Shown here one piece after another: positions 2,897 to 17,424 of a stretch of 64,000 bases of DNA. The DNA lies in contig NZ_CP101462.1 in the NCBI RefSeq assembly GCF_024362205.1, positions 1,268,501 to 1,332,500 on the forward strand, in the 5' to 3' direction. Origin of the DNA: Exiguobacterium aurantiacum (GTDB lineage: Bacteria > Bacillota > Bacilli > Exiguobacteriales > Exiguobacteriaceae). Each line of letters begins with the position of its first letter. Positions within the stretch are counted from its first letter, which is position 1. The notes beneath the pieces are model-generated. The model was not told the DNA's origin, searched no databases, and saw only the letters and a list, made by a program, of their open reading frames with translations. Position numbers and translations under genes: made by a program.

Positions 2897-3095
2897 AGCG
2901 GCGCTCGCCCGGCTCGAGGAAATCGTGACACAACTTGAGACGGGAGAGGTCGCCCTTGAAGAAGCGATGACGCTCTATGAGGAAGGTGTCCGGTTGTCGG
3001 CCCTCTGCCAGACCAAATTGACGGCGGCCGAGCAAAAGATGGACGAGATTCTTGAGCTCGACGGGACGCTCCGTGAAAAAGGAGGTACCGTATGA
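2865..3095 (+). CDS. xseB: Exodeoxyribonuclease VII small subunit
   Basis: The 76-residue helical protein has the family core FEAALARLEEIVTQLETGE followed by LEEAMTLYEEGVRL and a Lys/Glu-rich end, as expected for the small subunit that binds XseA. The start is led by GAAGGAGAG, located inside xseA coding sequence. It overlaps ispA by 4 nt (ATGA). Confidence 0.94.
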   Translation: MAKKQEELTFEAALARLEEIVTQLETGEVALEEAMTLYEEGVRLSALCQTKLTAAEQKMDEILELDGTLREKGGTV

Positions 3096-3970
3096 GCGTG
3101 CAGGTTCATCTACAGGCATGGAAAGACGAGGTCGAACAGGCGACGCGTCGCTTGCTCGACCCGTCTTTGATGCCGGAACGTCTGTTTCAATCGATGACGT
3201 ACTCCCTCGAGGCGGGTGGGAAACGGATTCGTCCGGCTCTTCTCTACGCTGTCCTCGATACATACGGCCGTCCGCGGGCGCTCGGTCATGAAGCGGCCGT
3301 CGCCCTTGAGATGGTCCACACGTACTCCCTCATCCACGATGACCTTCCGGCGATGGATGACGATGACGTCCGCCGCGGACGTCCGACGAACCATCGTCAG
3401 TTTGATGAGGCGACGGCGATTCTCGCAGGAGACGCCTTGCTCACGGACGCGTTCTATCTCATGGCACGAGCCGATTTGGAAGCGACAAAAATCGTCGCCC
3501 TCATCACGCGGTTCAGTGAGGCGGCAGGAAGTGCCGGCATGGTCGGTGGTCAGCTCGATGATATGCTCGCCGAAAAGCGAAGCGGCGTGACATTGTCGGC
3601 CTTGCAATCGATCCATGAACGGAAGACGGGTGCGCTCCTCGTGTACGCCCTTGAAGCGGGTGCCATCCTTGCGGACGCCTCGGAGGCGGACCGTCAGGCG
3701 CTGGCGCGGTTCGGGAAACATCTCGGGGTCGCTTTCCAAATCCAAGACGATATTTTAGACGTCGAAGGGGATGAAGCGTTGATCGGGAAGCGAGTCGGTT
3801 CGGACGAAGGCAACGATAAAGCCACTTATCCAAAACTGCTCGGCCTCGATGGAGCGAAAGAAGCGCTCGAACGGGAAGTCTCAGAAAGTAAGGCCGCCCT
3901 GGCCGAACTGTCGGTCGATGCCCCGCGTTTACGGGAACTACTCGACTTCGTTGTTCGACGCAATCATTAA
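3092..3970 (+). CDS. ispA: Polyprenyl (farnesyl) diphosphate synthase
   Basis: This trans-prenyltransferase condenses isopentenyl diphosphate with dimethylallyl and geranyl diphosphate. The 292-residue protein has GGKRIRPAL near residue 42, the first aspartate-rich motif in DDLPAMDDDDVRRGRP and the second in QIQDDILDVEGD. Size fits the bacterial FPP synthase class. The start follows AAAGGAGG and overlaps xseB by 4 nt. A strong terminator follows the stop, so dxs is expressed separately. Confidence 0.94.
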   Translation: MSVQVHLQAWKDEVEQATRRLLDPSLMPERLFQSMTYSLEAGGKRIRPALLYAVLDTYGRPRALGHEAAVALEMVHTYSLIHDDLPAMDDDDVRRGRPTNHRQFDEATAILAGDALLTDAFYLMARADLEATKIVALITRFSEAAGSAGMVGGQLDDMLAEKRSGVTLSALQSIHERKTGALLVYALEAGAILADASEADRQALARFGKHLGVAFQIQDDILDVEGDEALIGKRVGSDEGNDKATYPKLLGLDGAKEALEREVSESKAALAELSVDAPRLRELLDFVVRRNH

Positions 3971-6896: not shown

Positions 6897-7571
6897 ATGG
6901 CGAGAAGTCGGCATTCGATCGAACAAAAACTGAGTGCGCTGCGCATGATGGAAGAAGAAACCTATACGTGGAAGGAAATCATGGAAGCGCATAACGTCTC
7001 TGAGAATACCCTCCGGGTGTGGAAAGTGAAATTCGATACCGGCGGGATCGACGCGTTGAAGGAATCGAGGACCTGGAGACATTACACCAAGGAACAAAAG
7101 ATTGCCGCCGTCCGTGACTATCTCGATGGGGCCACCACGGTGGAAGTCCTCTCCAACCATCAAATCAGTGATGGATCTGTTCTTCGAAAATGGATTAAGA
7201 AGTATACTAGTCATAGCGAGTTAACAGATTCGAGAAAAGGGATGAATCGAGCTATGACAAAAGGAAGAAAAACTACATTCGAAGAGCGCTTCGAGATCGT
7301 GAAATACTGTTTGGAGAATGGACGCAACTACCAGCAGACCGCGGAACAATATCAGGTGTCTTATGGGCAAATCTATAGCTGGGTCAAGAAGTATGACACG
7401 GACGGGGCAGAAGCGCTCCTGGACCGCCGTGGGCGTACGAAGCCAGAGGACGAACTAAGTGAAGAGGAGAAGCTGAAACGCCAGATCCGGCAAATGGAGC
7501 TTGAGAACGAACTTCTTCGTGCGGACAACCTGTTCCTAAAAAAGTTAGAGGAGATCGAGAGGAGGTCGTGA
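6897..7571 (+). CDS. IS3-family transposase OrfA (helix-turn-helix protein)
   Basis: The 224-residue protein carries repeated helix-turn-helix units: one near residues 8-50 (KLSALRMMEEETYTWKEIM), a second near 66-100, and a third near 130-170 with NYQQTAEQYQVSYGQIYSWV. A leucine-rich coiled coil follows (KRQIRQMELENELLRADNLF). OrfA binds the IS ends and forms the N-terminal part of the OrfAB transposase. An in-frame A AAA AAG at 7538-7544 allows a -1 shift into orfB. The ribosome site GGGGAG lies in a hairpin arm. It overlaps orfB by 4 nt. Confidence 0.92.
   Translation: MARSRHSIEQKLSALRMMEEETYTWKEIMEAHNVSENTLRVWKVKFDTGGIDALKESRTWRHYTKEQKIAAVRDYLDGATTVEVLSNHQISDGSVLRKWIKKYTSHSELTDSRKGMNRAMTKGRKTTFEERFEIVKYCLENGRNYQQTAEQYQVSYGQIYSWVKKYDTDGAEALLDRRGRTKPEDELSEEEKLKRQIRQMELENELLRADNLFLKKLEEIERRS
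7538..7544 (+). other. Programmed -1 ribosomal frameshift site A AAA AAG
   Basis: The heptamer is in the orfA reading frame exactly as X XXY YYZ. Slipping by -1 enters the orfB frame, which is open from here to the orfB start with no stop. This is the usual way IS3 elements make OrfAB. Confidence 0.85.
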
Positions 7572-8467
7572 TCAGCCAGGTACGGCTACAGCAACGATAT
7601 ATCGCCATCAAAGAATTATACGAAGAGGAGGCCATCTCGATCGTCCTCCTCTGTCGAGTCGCCGGCATCTCACGGGCGGCCTATTACAAATGGTTGAACC
7701 GTACCATACCGGTGCGTCAAGAAGAGAACGAGAAGCTTCTGGAGGACATTCGTCTACTCTATGACCAGGCGAACGGCACATACGGGTACCGTCGGATCAC
7801 GATGACAATCAATCGGCTGCGCCGGCAACAGAGCCTGTCCCGATTCAATGAGAAGCGAATCTATCGCTTGATGCATAGCCATGGGATCCAATCGGTCATC
7901 CGCCGGAAGCGGAAGAGACATAAGAAGTCAACGCCGCAACATGTGGCCGAGAACCTGATGAACCGAGAATTCAGTGCGTCCCGCCCGGACGAGAAATGGT
8001 GCACCGACGTCACCGAGTTCAAGTATGGGACCGGGAAGAAGGCGTATCTGAGCGCGATCATCGACCTGTATGACGGCTCGATCGTCGCCTACCGCATCGG
8101 AAGGTCCAATAACAACGGGCTCGTCTTCCAGACGATGATGCCAGCCATCGCGGGGCTCCGTACAGGAGCACGTCCGATGATCCATAGCGACCGAGGGTTC
8201 CAATATACCTCAAGAGGGTTCAAACAGATGGTAGAAGACGCGGGAATGACCCGCAGCATGTCCCGGGTCGGGCGTTGCATCGACAACGCCCCGATCGAGA
8301 GTTTTTGGGGCACCTTGAAAGTGGAGATGTACTACTTGCGTGAGTTCCAGGCCTATAGCGAACTCACGAGGGCCATCGAGAACTACATATCGTTCTACAA
8401 CCACGATCGTTTCCAGAAACGACTAAACGGCTTGAGCCCTGTCGAATACAGGTCTCAAACCGCCTAG
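7568..8467 (+). CDS. IS3-family transposase OrfB (DDE integrase)
   Basis: The 299-residue catalytic part has an N-terminal HTH_21-like region (LYDQANGTYGYRRITMTI) and a retroviral-type integrase core. The DDE residues are the Asp of WCTDVTEFKY, the Asp of HSDRGFQYTS and the Glu of NAPIESFWGTLK, all with normal spacing. No stop or frameshift interrupts it. It starts with GTG overlapping the orfA stop, but the active enzyme is more likely the OrfAB fusion made at the A AAA AAG site. Confidence 0.94.
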   Translation: MISQVRLQQRYIAIKELYEEEAISIVLLCRVAGISRAAYYKWLNRTIPVRQEENEKLLEDIRLLYDQANGTYGYRRITMTINRLRRQQSLSRFNEKRIYRLMHSHGIQSVIRRKRKRHKKSTPQHVAENLMNREFSASRPDEKWCTDVTEFKYGTGKKAYLSAIIDLYDGSIVAYRIGRSNNNGLVFQTMMPAIAGLRTGARPMIHSDRGFQYTSRGFKQMVEDAGMTRSMSRVGRCIDNAPIESFWGTLKVEMYYLREFQAYSELTRAIENYISFYNHDRFQKRLNGLSPVEYRSQTA

Positions 8468-10805: not shown

Positions 10806-11537
10806 TTGATCACATTATGCATCGCGGACGACAATCGTGAAATCGTCGATTTGTTGACCCGCCAACTCGAGTCCGAGGATGACTTAAAAGTCGTCGGCAC
10901 CGCCTACGACGGCGAGGCATGCTTAGACGTCGTCAAGACACACCAGCCGGACGTGCTCCTACTCGACATTATCATGCCGCACCTTGACGGTATCGGCGTC
11001 CTCGAACGTTTACAGACAGACCTGGCGCACGCCAAACCGGAAGTGATCATGCTCAGCGCGTTCGGGAAAGATGAAGTGACGAAGCAGGCCGTTCAACTCG
11101 GTGCTTCTTACTTTTTGGTCAAGCCGTTCAACATCCAACAGCTAATTACGAAAATCCGTGAACTGGCCGCCGGATCGAGCCGGGAGTTCGAGGCGATGTC
11201 GCCAGAAGAACTCGATATCTCGTTGTTGCTGCAACAGCTCGGGATTTCACCGCGAATCAAAGGATTCAAGTATATCCGCCAGGCTGTCGTCTACGTCCGG
11301 GAGCGTCAGGAACTGCTCGGATTGATCACGAAGGAACTGTATCCGATGATTGCGAAAGAACATGAGACGACCTCGTCGCGCGTCGAGCGGGCGATGCGAC
11401 ACGCGATCAAGACGGCGTGGGAGAATGGGATGCGCAACCATGAGATGTTCGATGGACGTCCGGAGCGCGAGCGCAGTCCGAAAAATTCCGAATTCATTTC
11501 TTATTTTGTCACCTATCAATCGTTCAAACAGCAATGA
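10806..11537 (+). CDS. spo0A: Response regulator Spo0A
   Basis: The 243-residue protein has a receiver domain with acidic pocket CIADDNREI, phospho-acceptor Asp in LLLDIIMPHLDG and Lys in YFLVKPF, then a C-terminal DNA-binding domain with IKGFKYIRQAVVYV and SRVERAMRHAIKTAWENG, the helix region that recognises 0A boxes and contacts sigma-A. Start is TTG 10806, directly after the recN stop, with AAGGGG 9 nt upstream. In sporulating Bacillus spoIVB sits between recN and spo0A; it is absent here. Spo0A may act as a stationary-phase or biofilm regulator instead. Confidence 0.93.
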   Translation: MITLCIADDNREIVDLLTRQLESEDDLKVVGTAYDGEACLDVVKTHQPDVLLLDIIMPHLDGIGVLERLQTDLAHAKPEVIMLSAFGKDEVTKQAVQLGASYFLVKPFNIQQLITKIRELAAGSSREFEAMSPEELDISLLLQQLGISPRIKGFKYIRQAVVYVRERQELLGLITKELYPMIAKEHETTSSRVERAMRHAIKTAWENGMRNHEMFDGRPERERSPKNSEFISYFVTYQSFKQQ

Positions 11538-11581
11538 CCGATCAGGGGGGTTCTCCTCCTGATTTTCTTTCACTTCGTTAA

Positions 11582-11595
11582 AGAAAGCGCTTGCA
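11582..11595 (+). promoter_or_regulatory. cre-like CcpA site over the ncRNA promoter
   Basis: AGAAAGCGCTTGCA agrees with the cre consensus TGWNANCGNTNWCA at 12 of 14 positions. It covers most of the -35 box of the following promoter, a position expected to repress when CcpA is bound. Confidence 0.55.
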
Positions 11596-11618
11596 AATCG
11601 AGGGGAACTTGTTATAAT
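11591..11618 (+). promoter_or_regulatory. Strong sigma-A promoter of the non-coding RNA
   Basis: TTGCAA (11591-11596) and a perfect TATAAT (11613-11618) are 16 bp apart. Transcription would begin near 11625. No ribosome site with a credible gene follows before the terminator at 12105. Confidence 0.82.
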
Positions 11619-11624
11619 AAAGGT

Positions 11625-12147
11625 GTACCAAGTTACTTGGACGAGCGTCAGATGAACGCTTTCTAACGTGTCCCGGAACACGTTAAAGCAAGAAATCATC
11701 TCGGACCGCTATCCGTCAATAGCTCAGAGGTGGGAACGACATCTCAAATCGTCATCGTCCCGACGAGAGGTCGCGACGTACGCTCATTCGCGAGGCGATT
11801 CCGGCATCGGTTCGAAGCTAGGGACCGTGTCTGGGGAAAACGAATCGTTCAGTTGACCAAAAGGAGTGTTGTCAACCGTTGAACAGTTTATGGCAAGCGT
11901 TCGACTTCACGATGGATGGTTCGACATGACCCGATGAACATTTGTTAGTAACTCGAATGGGTACGTTTCCGTTCACGCAAGACGGCAGTTACTACTTTCT
12001 TTCAAACTTCTTCATTAAGAAGACCATTGGACCTCATGTCACAAGATTGTAGCAAGTAGGAGAGGAGATCATCCGTAGTGATCACAATTCAATATGAATA
12101 AAAAGGTTCCGCACTTGAAATGAAGTCAAGTTAGGGAACCTTTTTTT
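11625..12147 (+). ncRNA. Predicted structured non-coding RNA, about 520 nt
   Basis: This gene-free stretch after spo0A has its own promoter and an intrinsic terminator. It is full of complementary arms: CCAAG/CTTGG (11628-11640), AGCGT/ACGCT (11644-11660), an 8-bp TAACGTGT/ACACGTTA (11664-11685), GAGGTG/CATCTC (11727-11745), TCGCGA/TCGCGA (11771-11793), GTTCA-TTGAC with GTCAA-TGAAC (11847-11884), an 8-bp TAGTAACT/AGTTACTA (11946-11994) and CTTCTT/AAGAAG (12007-12022). Stop codons and lack of ribosome sites argue against coding. It does not resemble rnpB, tmRNA or SRP RNA. OLE RNA, a large RNA of Firmicutes found among similar genes, is a possibility I cannot test from memory. Confidence 0.7.
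12105..12147. terminator. Terminator of the ncRNA, also facing yqzF
   Basis: GGTTCC / GGAACC (12105-12110 and 12135-12140) encloses ACTTGA / TCAAGT (12113-12118 and 12126-12131), followed by seven T. A run of A on the left side gives U residues on the other strand too, so it can also end the leftward DUF2627 gene. Confidence 0.9.
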
Positions 12148-12151
12148 GTGT

Positions 12152-12400
12152 TCAAGAATCTATTCGTGGGACTTTGCCTGTTTTCTTGTCACGATTGAAG
12201 ATATAACCTGCCACGAAACCAATCCCGCCCATCGCAATCAACAGCCCGAACGTTCCTTGAAGCATCGAGGCGGCTGCCACTGACTCGATCCAAGAGAACG
12301 GGACGCTCGTCTTGAGGAAGAAACTGTCGCGAAGTAACTTGATGCCATAGACACCTAAGAGGCCAGGGATGATTAAGATCAACAGTGCGATGATGCGCAT
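12152..12400 (-). CDS. yqzF: DUF2627 small membrane protein (YqzF-like)
   Basis: The 82-residue protein has two hydrophobic segments (about residues 3-22, IIALLILIIPGLLGVYGIKL, and 45-69) and a charged end NRDKKTGKVPR, as in B. subtilis YqzF, which also lies next to bkdR. Function is unknown. The start is supported by AGGAGGAG. It is transcribed away from bkdR and toward the ncRNA terminator. Confidence 0.85.
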   Translation of the reverse strand: MRIIALLILIIPGLLGVYGIKLLRDSFFLKTSVPFSWIESVAAASMLQGTFGLLIAMGGIGFVAGYIFNRDKKTGKVPRIDS

Positions 12401-14170: not shown

Positions 14171-14223
14171 ATTGCCTGCAACTTTATTCACGCTATGTAA
14201 AAATATGCAGAATCATTGACCGG

Positions 14224-14237
14224 TTGAAGCGCTTTCA
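14224..14237 (+). promoter_or_regulatory. cre-like palindrome before the ptb promoter
   Basis: TTGAAGCGCTTTCA matches the cre consensus at 12 of 14 positions and has the AAGCGCTT core. It ends 4 bp before the -24 box, so CcpA bound here could hinder the sigma-54 polymerase or its activator. Confidence 0.5.
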
Positions 14238-14241
14238 AAAG

Positions 14242-14257: not shown

Positions 14258-14293
14258 TAAGAATAAGTGAAGACAGGCAAGGGGGGGACATGC

Positions 14294-15209: not shown

Positions 15210-16331
15210 ATGATGGAAACAAACATGGAACCACGCTTTCGTATTTTCGACGTCTTACAGGCTGAGGATTATGAGCAAATCGTCTTCTGCCAAGACCAGG
15301 CGTCAGGATTAAAGGCGATTATCGCGATTCACGATACGACGCTCGGACCGGCTCTCGGGGGGCTGCGCATGTGGAACTATGCGTCGGAAGAAGAAGCGCT
15401 TACGGACGTCCTTCGTTTGGCAAAAGGGATGACGTATAAAAACGCGGCTGCGGGACTTAACCTCGGCGGCGGCAAGGCCGTCATCATCGGGAACGCGAAG
15501 ACGGACAAGTCCGAGGCGCTGTTCCGGGCGTTCGGTCGTTACGTGCAATCACTCAGCGGTCGCTACATCACGGCCGAGGACGTCAACACGACGGTCGCTG
15601 ATATGGACTTCATCCACATGGAGACCGATTATGTGACCGGCGTCAGCCCAGCGTTCGGATCGAGCGGCAATCCGTCGCCGGTGACGGCGTACGGCGTTTA
15701 CCGCGGCATGAAGGCGGCGGCGAAATGGAAGTTCGGTTCGGACTCGCTCGCTGGGAAGACGGTCGCCGTCCAAGGGGTCGGGAACGTCGCCTACAACTTG
15801 TGCCGTCATTTACACGAGGAAGGGGCGCACTTGGTCGTGACCGACATTAACGAAGAGGCGCTCAAGCGGGCCGAGACGGACTTCGGAGCGACAGTCGTCA
15901 AGCCGGATGAGATCTATGCGGTCGATTGCGACATCTTCGCGCCGTGTGCACTTGGAGCGGTCATCAATGACAAGACGATTCCAATGCTCAAAGCCCAAAT
16001 CGTGGCCGGTGCGGCCAACAACCAACTCGCTGAGGACCGTCATGGGGACGTGTTAGAAGAGCGCGGCATCCTCTATGCGCCAGACTTCGTCATCAACGCG
16101 GGCGGCGTCATCAACGTGGCCGACGAGCTCGAAGGCTATAACCGCGAGCGGGCGATGAAGAAAGTCGAGCTCATTTACGACAACATGCAGCGCGTCTTCG
16201 AGATTGCTGAGCGCGATGGTGTCCCGACGCATGTCGCGGCCGAGAAGATGGCCGAAGAGCGCATCCAGATGATGTCACGGTCGCGCAGCCAGTTCTTGAA
16301 AGTCGAAAAGAGCTTGTTAGGTGGGCGCTGA
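15210..16331 (+). CDS. bcd: Leucine dehydrogenase
   Basis: This NAD-dependent enzyme deaminates leucine, isoleucine and valine to the 2-oxo acids. The 373-residue protein has the dimerisation/substrate domain with GGLRMWNY and the catalytic-lysine motif [16 protein letters not shown], then the NAD domain with [16 protein letters not shown]. Start ATG 15210 follows GGAGG by 8 nt. It supplies substrate for the BkdA-BkdB-Lpd complex in the same operon. Confidence 0.95.
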
Positions 16332-16332
16332 G

Positions 16333-17424
16333 ATGACACGACAGCTCATTCTCGCCATCAACCCGGGTTCGACTTCGACAAAGGTCGGTTTGTTTGACGG
16401 AACGGACGAGATCATGTCTCGTACCGTCCGTCATGGGGCCGACGTCACAGGATTGTCACTTCCGGAGCAACTGCCACATCGGGAACGCGAAGTGCGGGAC
16501 TTATTGGCCGAGACGGGCATCGCGGGCGAGGAGTTGTCCGCGATCGTCGGTCGCGGCGGTTTGCTCGCCCCGATGACATCGGGGACGTACGCCGTCAACC
16601 CGCTCATGCGGGAAGATTTGGCGAGCGGACGCTTCGGTATGCATGCCTCGAATTTGGGCGGTTTGCTCGCACACAAGCTCGGTGATTTATTTCAAGTGCC
16701 GAATTTCATCGTTGACCCGGTCGTCGTCGACGAGCTCGGACCGCTCGCGCGGGCGACAGGAATGCCTGAAATCAATCGGCGCAGCATCTTTCACGCCTTG
16801 AACCAGAAGGCGGTCGCGAAACGTTTTGCGGCTGAAAATGGAAGCGATTACAACGAACTTAACTTGGTCATCGCCCACCTCGGTGGCGGTATCACGGTCG
16901 GCGCCCATGCCAAAGGAAAAGTCATCGATGTAAACAATGGGCTCGATGGCGACGGCCCGCTCGCCCCGGAACGGGCAGGTTCAATTCCTGTTGGACAGGT
17001 AGTAGAACTATGTTATAGTACCAGGTATAAAGAGTCGGAAATGAAACAGAAAATCGTCGGACGCGGAGGACTGTTTGCCCACCTCGGGACGTTCGACGCG
17101 ATCGAGATCGAACAGCGCATGGCAGATGGTGATGAACAGGCCGCTCTTCTTTATGAGACGATGGCATACCGCGTCGCCCAAGAGATCGCCAAACATGGCG
17201 CTACGCTGCGCGGCGACGTCGATGCGATTTTGTTGACGGGCGGCATCGCCTATTCGACTTGGCTGACCGAGCAAATCAGTGCCCGCGTCGGCTATTTGGC
17301 GCCGGTCCACATCTATCCGGGTGAAGATGAGCTGAAGGCACTCGCCGAAGGAGCTTTCCGGGCCATCCGACATGAAGAAGCAGTTCGAGAATATGAGGGG
17401 GATACACATGGCACGAGAATTTGA
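16333..17424 (+). CDS. buk: Butyrate kinase
   Basis: Buk transfers phosphate from (iso)butyryl phosphate to ADP. The 363-residue protein belongs to the acetokinase/ASKHA fold, with NPGSTSTKVGLFDG at the N-terminus, AHLGGGITVGAHAKGKVIDV in the middle and AILLTGGIAYS near the end. ATG 16333 directly follows the bcd stop. The 3' end overlaps lpdA by 17 nt. Confidence 0.94.
   Translation: MTRQLILAINPGSTSTKVGLFDGTDEIMSRTVRHGADVTGLSLPEQLPHREREVRDLLAETGIAGEELSAIVGRGGLLAPMTSGTYAVNPLMREDLASGRFGMHASNLGGLLAHKLGDLFQVPNFIVDPVVVDELGPLARATGMPEINRRSIFHALNQKAVAKRFAAENGSDYNELNLVIAHLGGGITVGAHAKGKVIDVNNGLDGDGPLAPERAGSIPVGQVVELCYSTRYKESEMKQKIVGRGGLFAHLGTFDAIEIEQRMADGDEQAALLYETMAYRVAQEIAKHGATLRGDVDAILLTGGIAYSTWLTEQISARVGYLAPVHIYPGEDELKALAEGAFRAIRHEEAVREYEGDTHGTRI

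Follow-up and report, generated by a model that had tools for sequence, protein, structure and literature searches.

Large complex RNAs outside the ribosome are few in bacteria, and what OLE, ROOL and GOLLD do is poorly understood (PMC12286853). The same paper describes OLE as forming an RNA dimer, and ROOL and GOLLD as large ornate RNAs that assemble into homo-oligomers, ROOL by means of kissing loops (PMC12286853). The OLE gene is reported to adjoin a gene for a predicted membrane protein (PMC11332333), and the literature names cold, alcohol, high Mg2+ and alternative carbon sources as conditions of stress for OLE. The raiA-motif RNA (ModT) is presented as a conserved structured RNA of Bacillota that is linked to growth in C. 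difficile (PMC11706538). A first-pass annotation of Exiguobacterium aurantiacum DNA had proposed that a large structured non-coding RNA, either of a new class or a diverged OLE, lies downstream of spo0A. We analysed this RNA (11625-12147, plus strand) in the window, by which we mean the whole stretch of 64,000 nucleotides, and compared it with the systems described above.

A scan of the whole window against Rfam 15 gave no family at the gathering score. The Infernal search that had been proposed for the stretch itself returned, among all 4227 Rfam families at E≤10, a single irrelevant match of 23 bits located at the terminator. We take raiA, ROOL and GOLLD to be among the families of the Rfam 15 library, and the stretch reached the gathering score of cmscan for none of its families. 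The RNA is, like ROOL and GOLLD, large, ornate and bacterial, with a palindromic loop that is a candidate only; it differs from them in having neither an Rfam match nor a match in phage or plasmid records. It differs from the raiA-motif RNA, reported from more than 2,500 species, in having been found in one family only and in lacking an Rfam match.

The resemblance to OLE RNA (RF01071) is, in our view, a functional analogy only. Both are ornate stand-alone RNAs of Bacilli with invariant boxes and of similar length (about 520-760 nt for the present RNA, about 600 for OLE), and the RNA adjoins a DUF2627 gene whose membrane character was judged by eye only. The remark that the surrounding genes are of the type found around OLE was pertinent: in the four OLE loci checked (4/4), OLE lies between ispA and dxs. 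In the window, dxs (from 4016/4088) is the immediate neighbour of ispA (3092-3970), the interval holds no OLE, and the RNA lies elsewhere. Of 121 genomes of the class, 35 were matched by the OLE covariance model, with 482-579 bits for a gathering score of 50 bits, and none of these was among the nine Exiguobacteriaceae in the set (the genome itself and eight others); one further weak match, of 22.9 bits, was found in another family. No OLE match to the stretch was obtained at E≤10. Both marks of OLE, a covariance match above 50 bits and a location between ispA and dxs, were thus lacking, and the RNA has been found in one family only. The length, the ornate fold, the host and the wider gene neighbourhood would suit a diverged OLE, a reading to which the results leave very little credence. 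A housekeeping RNA in an unusual form, for which size and structure alone would speak, has a practically negligible probability, as the genome encodes 6S RNA, RNase P RNA and tmRNA elsewhere (78.8, 310.1 and 191.2 bits, respectively) and the stretch matches none of the corresponding models (RF00013, RF00011 and RF00023). The RNA resembles 6S RNA in being stand-alone and structured, and differs in that the genome has a separate 6S. The first-pass annotation had been right to set these three families aside; for SRP RNA, also set aside, the check was the Rfam scan of the stretch.

No description of the RNA was found among the matches listed in a search of the open-access literature, mostly seen as titles and beginnings of abstracts, with subscription papers outside its scope. 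The available part of an Exiguobacterium genomics paper counts predicted sRNAs and names no such RNA (PMC10837837). In an RNA-seq study of E. antarcticum B7, the non-coding RNA reads were filtered out, according to the accessible text (PMC4247613).

The gap between spo0A and the DUF2627 gene

The RNA is flanked upstream by spo0A (10806-11537, plus strand; TIGR02875, 261 bits for a cut-off of 200) and downstream by a convergent DUF2627 (yqzF-like) gene (12152-12400, minus strand; PF11118, 79 bits). The gap had been given as 613 bp; we measured 614 bp between the end of the spo0A ORF at 11537 and the end of the minus-strand DUF2627 ORF at 12152. The predicted promoter was found at 11591-11618 (plus strand). 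It is of SigA type, with the -35 box TTGCAA at 11591-11596, a 16-bp spacer and the extended -10 box TGTTATAAT at 11610-11618. By itself, the arrangement TTGCAA-16-TATAAT does not occur beyond chance (2 found for 1.5 expected in the scanned stretch). The promoter letters TATAATAA/TATAATGA are unchanged in 37/37 loci of relatives, and the extended -10 motif TGnTATAAT is present in all 37. A start placed 7 nt past the -10 box and an end at the T-run would give a transcript of about 523 nt.

The strong terminator announced for this gap is indeed present and conserved, with a stem and T-run at 12101-12147 (plus strand) and a conserved inner hairpin, CUUGAAAUGA..UCAAG. A simple terminator scanner missed it, probably because the large inner hairpin exceeds the permitted loop. 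The T-run ends at 12147, four bases short of the convergent DUF2627 stop codon, which begins at 12152. On the other side, a pattern scan detected a terminator-like hairpin 3' of spo0A at 11540-11564 (plus strand; 25-nt stem-loop with a T-rich tail) which, as a consensus match only, would separate the RNA gene from spo0A transcription. Further upstream, between tlyA and argR, the window encodes two transposases (6897-8467), matched by HTH_Tnp_1 and by the rve integrase core, presumably in an IS3-like arrangement.

A cre-like (CcpA) site at 11581-11596 overlaps the -35 box, with one mismatch on the minus strand and two on the plus strand relative to the consensus. Since such matches are common by chance (61 found in the window for 43 expected), the weight of this site rests on its position and conservation. 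A match with at most two mismatches occupies the identical position in 19/19 genomes of the same clade. Nine of the 18 sister-clade genomes have it 13 bp upstream of this position, and no match with at most two mismatches was found in the other nine. The genome encodes a CcpA orthologue (516 bits for a cut-off of 442), and repression of the RNA by CcpA in many members would be a natural guess. Two further cre-like matches were noted in the window, one at 14223-14238 (two mismatches), just before a phosphate butyryltransferase gene at 14267, and one at 16838-16853 (no mismatch) within ORF 16321-17424.

The claim that the gap holds no credible gene also stood. No frame of at least 25 codons is common to all 37 aligned loci. 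The commonest frame of this size, of about 32 codons, occurs in 22/37 loci (14/19 and 8/18), and lowering the threshold to 20 codons raises the maximum to 28/37. Three frames of the window gave no Pfam match at E≤1. The locus combines a promoter and a terminator with covarying structure and the absence of a shared ORF, as expected of a large stand-alone structured non-coding RNA in the loose sense.

Conservation and fold of the RNA

Across the 19 genomes of the window's clade, the RNA has 90% nucleotide identity and is more conserved than spo0A, whose final 528 nt reach 81%. Between the two clades the RNA retains 59% nucleotide identity, with numerous compensatory changes; protein identity is 56-65% for Spo0A stretches and 57-61% for DUF2627. 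The single sequence folds at -160.8 kcal/mol (z -3.0), and none of 100 shuffles did as well. Three sets of 19, 17 and 36 distinct sequences gave consensus folding energies of -268.7, -248.3 and -166.9 kcal/mol, with alifold z scores of -8.6, -9.2 and -9.0; none of 60 column shuffles was as low in any set. Pairs with changes on both sides numbered 15, 24 and 33, for 3.6, 6.5 and 18.9 expected from the shuffles, which preserve gaps as well as conservation classes and do not model the tree (0/60 as high). The last 528 nt of spo0A, treated by the identical procedure, gave a z score of 0.10. This contrast is a better control than the shuffles, even though spo0A is somewhat more diverged. Conservation and covariation of the gap among relatives, the outcome to which the first-pass annotation had tied its proposal, were thus both observed.

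The reverse strand of the RNA also fell below each of its 60 shuffles, with weaker z scores (-5.2 and -7.8) and with 24 both-side pairs in g2, equal to the forward count, so that the strand call rests mainly on the promoter and the terminator. Because the sequences form only two deep clades, several of the compensatory changes that separate these may each go back to one event. We further evaluated structures set by hand. The 5' structure (26 pairs) is 97.3% paired, a value that falls to 27-45% after a shift of one to three columns. It contains 8 pairs with both-side change, a number reached by 7 of 500 shuffles, and 104 such cells, reached by none of 500. Among its five helices, one reaches only 86.5% pairing, and the pseudoknot helix is invariant. 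Three 3' helices are 100% paired, with both-side change at 3/17 pairs, a level reached by 472 of 500 shuffles, and with 39 both-side-change cells versus 16.3 in shuffles (0/500). As 3/17 pairs is not above the shuffles, the evidence for the 3' domain rests on cell counts, energies and clade-specific helices. The number of pair types lies under the shuffle level in both the 5' and the 3' hand-set structures. A pairing between CCGGA and UCUCGG proposed by RNAalifold was discarded, since one of its pairs is broken in 17 of 36 distinct rows.

All elements of the RNA are given on the plus strand. The 5' domain begins with hairpin P1 (CCAAG/CUUGG, 11628-11640), in which one G-C pair is swapped for A-U between clades, followed by hairpin P2 (AGCGU/ACGCU, 11644-11660), with two pairs changed on both sides and the loop CAGAUGA. 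Six nucleotides of this loop, AGAUGA (11650-11655), could pair with UCAUCU at 11696-11701. This candidate pseudoknot of 6 bp is invariant in 34/34 distinct rows, which is compatible with its formation without being a covariation proof. Hairpin P4 (GCUAU/AUAGC, 11708-11723) has two pairs with both-side change and 86.5% of its cells paired, one pair being lost in one clade. Hairpin P5 (AGGUG/CAUCU, 11728-11744) is 100% paired, with both-side change at 3/5 pairs. Some of these pairings are mutually exclusive: TCATCTC (11696-11702) has two possible partners, CAGATGA (11649-11655) and GAGGTG (11727-11732), and the latter also pairs with CATCTC (11740-11745). These alternatives within 11649-11745 could serve as a switch.

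Hairpin P3 (11664-11685) had to be examined sequence by sequence because it aligns poorly across clades. It corresponds to one of the two 8-bp arm pairs read directly in the first-pass annotation (11664-11671/11678-11685), both of which were confirmed and reappear among the helices of the consensus. Both the sequence and the length of the P3 stem vary among species, whereas the CCGGA of its loop (11673-11677) is identical in 37/37 loci. When the sequences were folded in isolation, CCGG occupied the apical loop in 33/37 cases despite very different stems; it was not looped in the remaining four (L031-L034), which are near-identical relatives. A fixed self-complementary CCGG carried by the loop of a freely changing stem resembles a symmetric kissing contact, and we consider this a candidate kissing loop.

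In the middle region, a hairpin at 11801-11835 presents the conserved loop UUCGAAGC(U/A)AGGG, around which the stems are rewritten within each clade through compensatory changes. In g1, both-side changes occur at 4/5 and 3/6 pairs, with 11.6% and 3.5% of cells unpaired. It is followed by the longest invariant run of the RNA, the Shine-Dalgarno-like 15-mer AAAAGGAGUGUUGUC (11859-11873), identical in 37/37 loci. The 3' domain (11914-12074) is closed by GGAUG (11914-11918) and CAUCC (12070-12074), pairs which are invariant in the combined alignment. At equivalent places inside it, the nested helices of the two clades are entirely different in sequence, namely GACAUGA/UCAUGUC plus CCGAUG/CAUUGG in one clade, GCUUC/GAAGU and ACCUAGGU/ACCUAUGGU in the other. 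The second 8-bp arm pair (11946-11953/11987-11994) belongs to the consensus helix UAGUAACU/AGUUACUA with its nested hairpin (11946-11994), the helix at this place being either UAGUAACU/AGUUACUA or GUCAGAU/AUCUGAU. UUCUUUC (11997-12003) has a candidate long-range partner in GAGAGGA (12060-12066); its 7 pairs are 100% paired in 31 rows, and two of them vary, on one side only. A hairpin at 12007-12022, CUUCUUCAUUAAGAAG, shows one swap from U-A to C-G and contains UCUUCAUUAAGA, invariant in 37/37; the domain includes the hairpin around the box CUUCAUUAAG. In 6 of 18 sister-clade genomes (L020, L022, L023, L024, L026 and L028), a tandem array of a 10-bp unit, AAGCAAGACC, lies inside the RNA and extends it from about 565 to 676-759 nt. 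There are 19 copies in L024 (1145-1335) and 11 in L020 (1824-1933), and L028 carries a 9-bp variant.

Distribution and synteny

A blastn search of 61 genomes detected the RNA in 37, namely the genome of origin, 18/18 others of the genus and 18/18 of the sister genus, and gave no match in any of the 24 genomes of other families. Repeated over the full genus, the search was positive in 19/19 genomes. We also built two covariance models, R1 for the 5' domain (126 positions) and R2 for the 3' domain (150 positions). In alignments A1 and A3 the terminators of the two clades are out of register by one base, so the models were built on A2 and A4, with helices unaffected by this error. The 398 genomes of the class that were searched include 38 Exiguobacteriaceae which each model matched with at least 109 bits, every listed member of the family being a carrier (38/38), and nothing credible was found in the remaining 360. 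R2 gave no match in 397 other genomes of the phylum; as searches over more than 40 genomes were run with strict filters, weak matches may be lost there. Outside the family, in the 360 genomes, R1 gave seven weak matches (E 0.001-0.041, at most 22.9 bits), and R2 one (27.7 bits, E 0.027). We treated these as noise because neither Spo0A nor DUF2627 was near any of the five loci inspected among the seven R1 matches. A search with the conserved pattern retrieved 135 stretches, 107 from genomes and 28 from viruses. R1 scored at least 114 bits in 25 of them, all from Exiguobacterium, and besides these matched just two, with 14.3 bits. A spread via phages or plasmids was rejected, as blastn found no match to the RNA among 50,697 records of phages and 72,556 of plasmids. 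The RNA has so far been found only in Exiguobacteriaceae.

The gene order is equally constant on the downstream side, where DUF2627 adjoins the RNA in 38/38 loci. Spo0A is encoded upstream in 37/38, with several hundred bases of other DNA intervening in some genomes of the sister genus. The single locus without a Spo0A match, that of E. flavidum, is on a contig with about 1.7 kb of sequence upstream of the RNA. In the sister-clade genome L034, a reading frame judged by eye to be reductase-like lies between spo0A and the RNA.

Possible functions of the RNA

The existence of a structured stand-alone RNA at this locus can be considered nearly certain. With its conservation, its covariation and the negative Rfam searches, it looks like a new RNA of Exiguobacteriaceae, matching no catalogued family searched, in agreement with the new class envisaged in the first-pass annotation. 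A cis-acting riboswitch or attenuator requires a downstream gene in the same direction; since the DUF2627 gene is convergent, such control of the downstream gene was rejected. As for a cis role on spo0A, the predicted hairpin between the two speaks against it.

The reading that we favour, tentatively and at a little under an even chance, is that of a trans-acting RNP scaffold of the OLE type, distinct from OLE, possibly dimeric and repressed by CcpA in many members. In the mechanism that we infer, SigA RNA polymerase would make the transcript of about 523 nt. When good sugars are present, its synthesis would in many members be blocked by CcpA at the cre-like site, so that the RNA would accumulate in poor carbon or in stationary phase. 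Folding would produce a 5' domain, comprising P1-P5 and the candidate pseudoknot, and a 3' domain with GGAUG/CAUCC as its closing helix. Two copies could pair via the palindromic CCGG loop of P3, and the boxes AAAAGGAGUGUUGUC, UUCGAAGC.AGGG, UUCUUUC/GAGAGGA and CUUCAUUAAG would be docking sites for proteins or the ribosome.

The strongest competitor, which we consider rather unlikely, is a trans-acting regulator of the antisense type. Its exposed boxes (UUCUUUC/CUUCUUCAUUAAG, which is CU-rich, or AAAAGGAG) would pair with mRNAs or with the 16S anti-Shine-Dalgarno and control translation, the rest being stabilising structure. The invariant boxes of 7-15 nt, some of which appear to resemble Shine-Dalgarno or anti-Shine-Dalgarno letters, would fit such a role, and a stand-alone unit with possible CcpA control is typical of regulatory sRNAs. 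However, several of the boxes are paired in the consensus, and antisense-type regulators usually need less maintained fold than the approximately 520 nt found here. Invariant unpaired letters around covarying stems are also the usual look of ribozymes and ligand-binding RNAs, whose catalytic or sensing core would then lie in the invariant boxes. We judge this improbable, as there is no cis target and no Rfam family, ribozymes and riboswitches included, reached threshold. A tiny peptide deserves mention as well, the RNA being in that case a dual-function RNA or an mRNA with a structured leader. A seven-codon GTG...TAA frame at 12078-12101 (plus strand) follows a GGAG box (GAGAGGAG) in 37/37 loci, and TAT/TAC and GAA/GAG changes occur in it. 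Other codons alter the residue and no clear coding signal emerges, the spacing is 10-11 nt, and the frame, which may be a chance occurrence or a mini-ORF, is short enough for chance. As a peptide message would also leave 450 nt of covarying fold upstream unexplained, we hold it to be highly improbable. We favour the RNP scaffold over an antisense regulator, a ribozyme and a peptide message.

A bolder form of the scaffold reading, which we regard as unlikely, is that this RNA belongs to a new ornate class in which two copies, joined at the CCGG kissing loop on a stem that is continually rewritten, make up a homodimeric RNP, and that it has assumed the role played by OLE in related Bacilli within a family where OLE was not found. 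The RNA would in any event be a further large ornate bacterial RNA, unrelated to OLE, ROOL and GOLLD. Present once per genome with clean flanks, in two divergent clades of cultivable environmental bacteria and with a candidate CcpA switch, it offers a tractable target for deletion. As OLE was not found in Exiguobacteriaceae, the family may allow the direct question of whether such RNAs replace one another.
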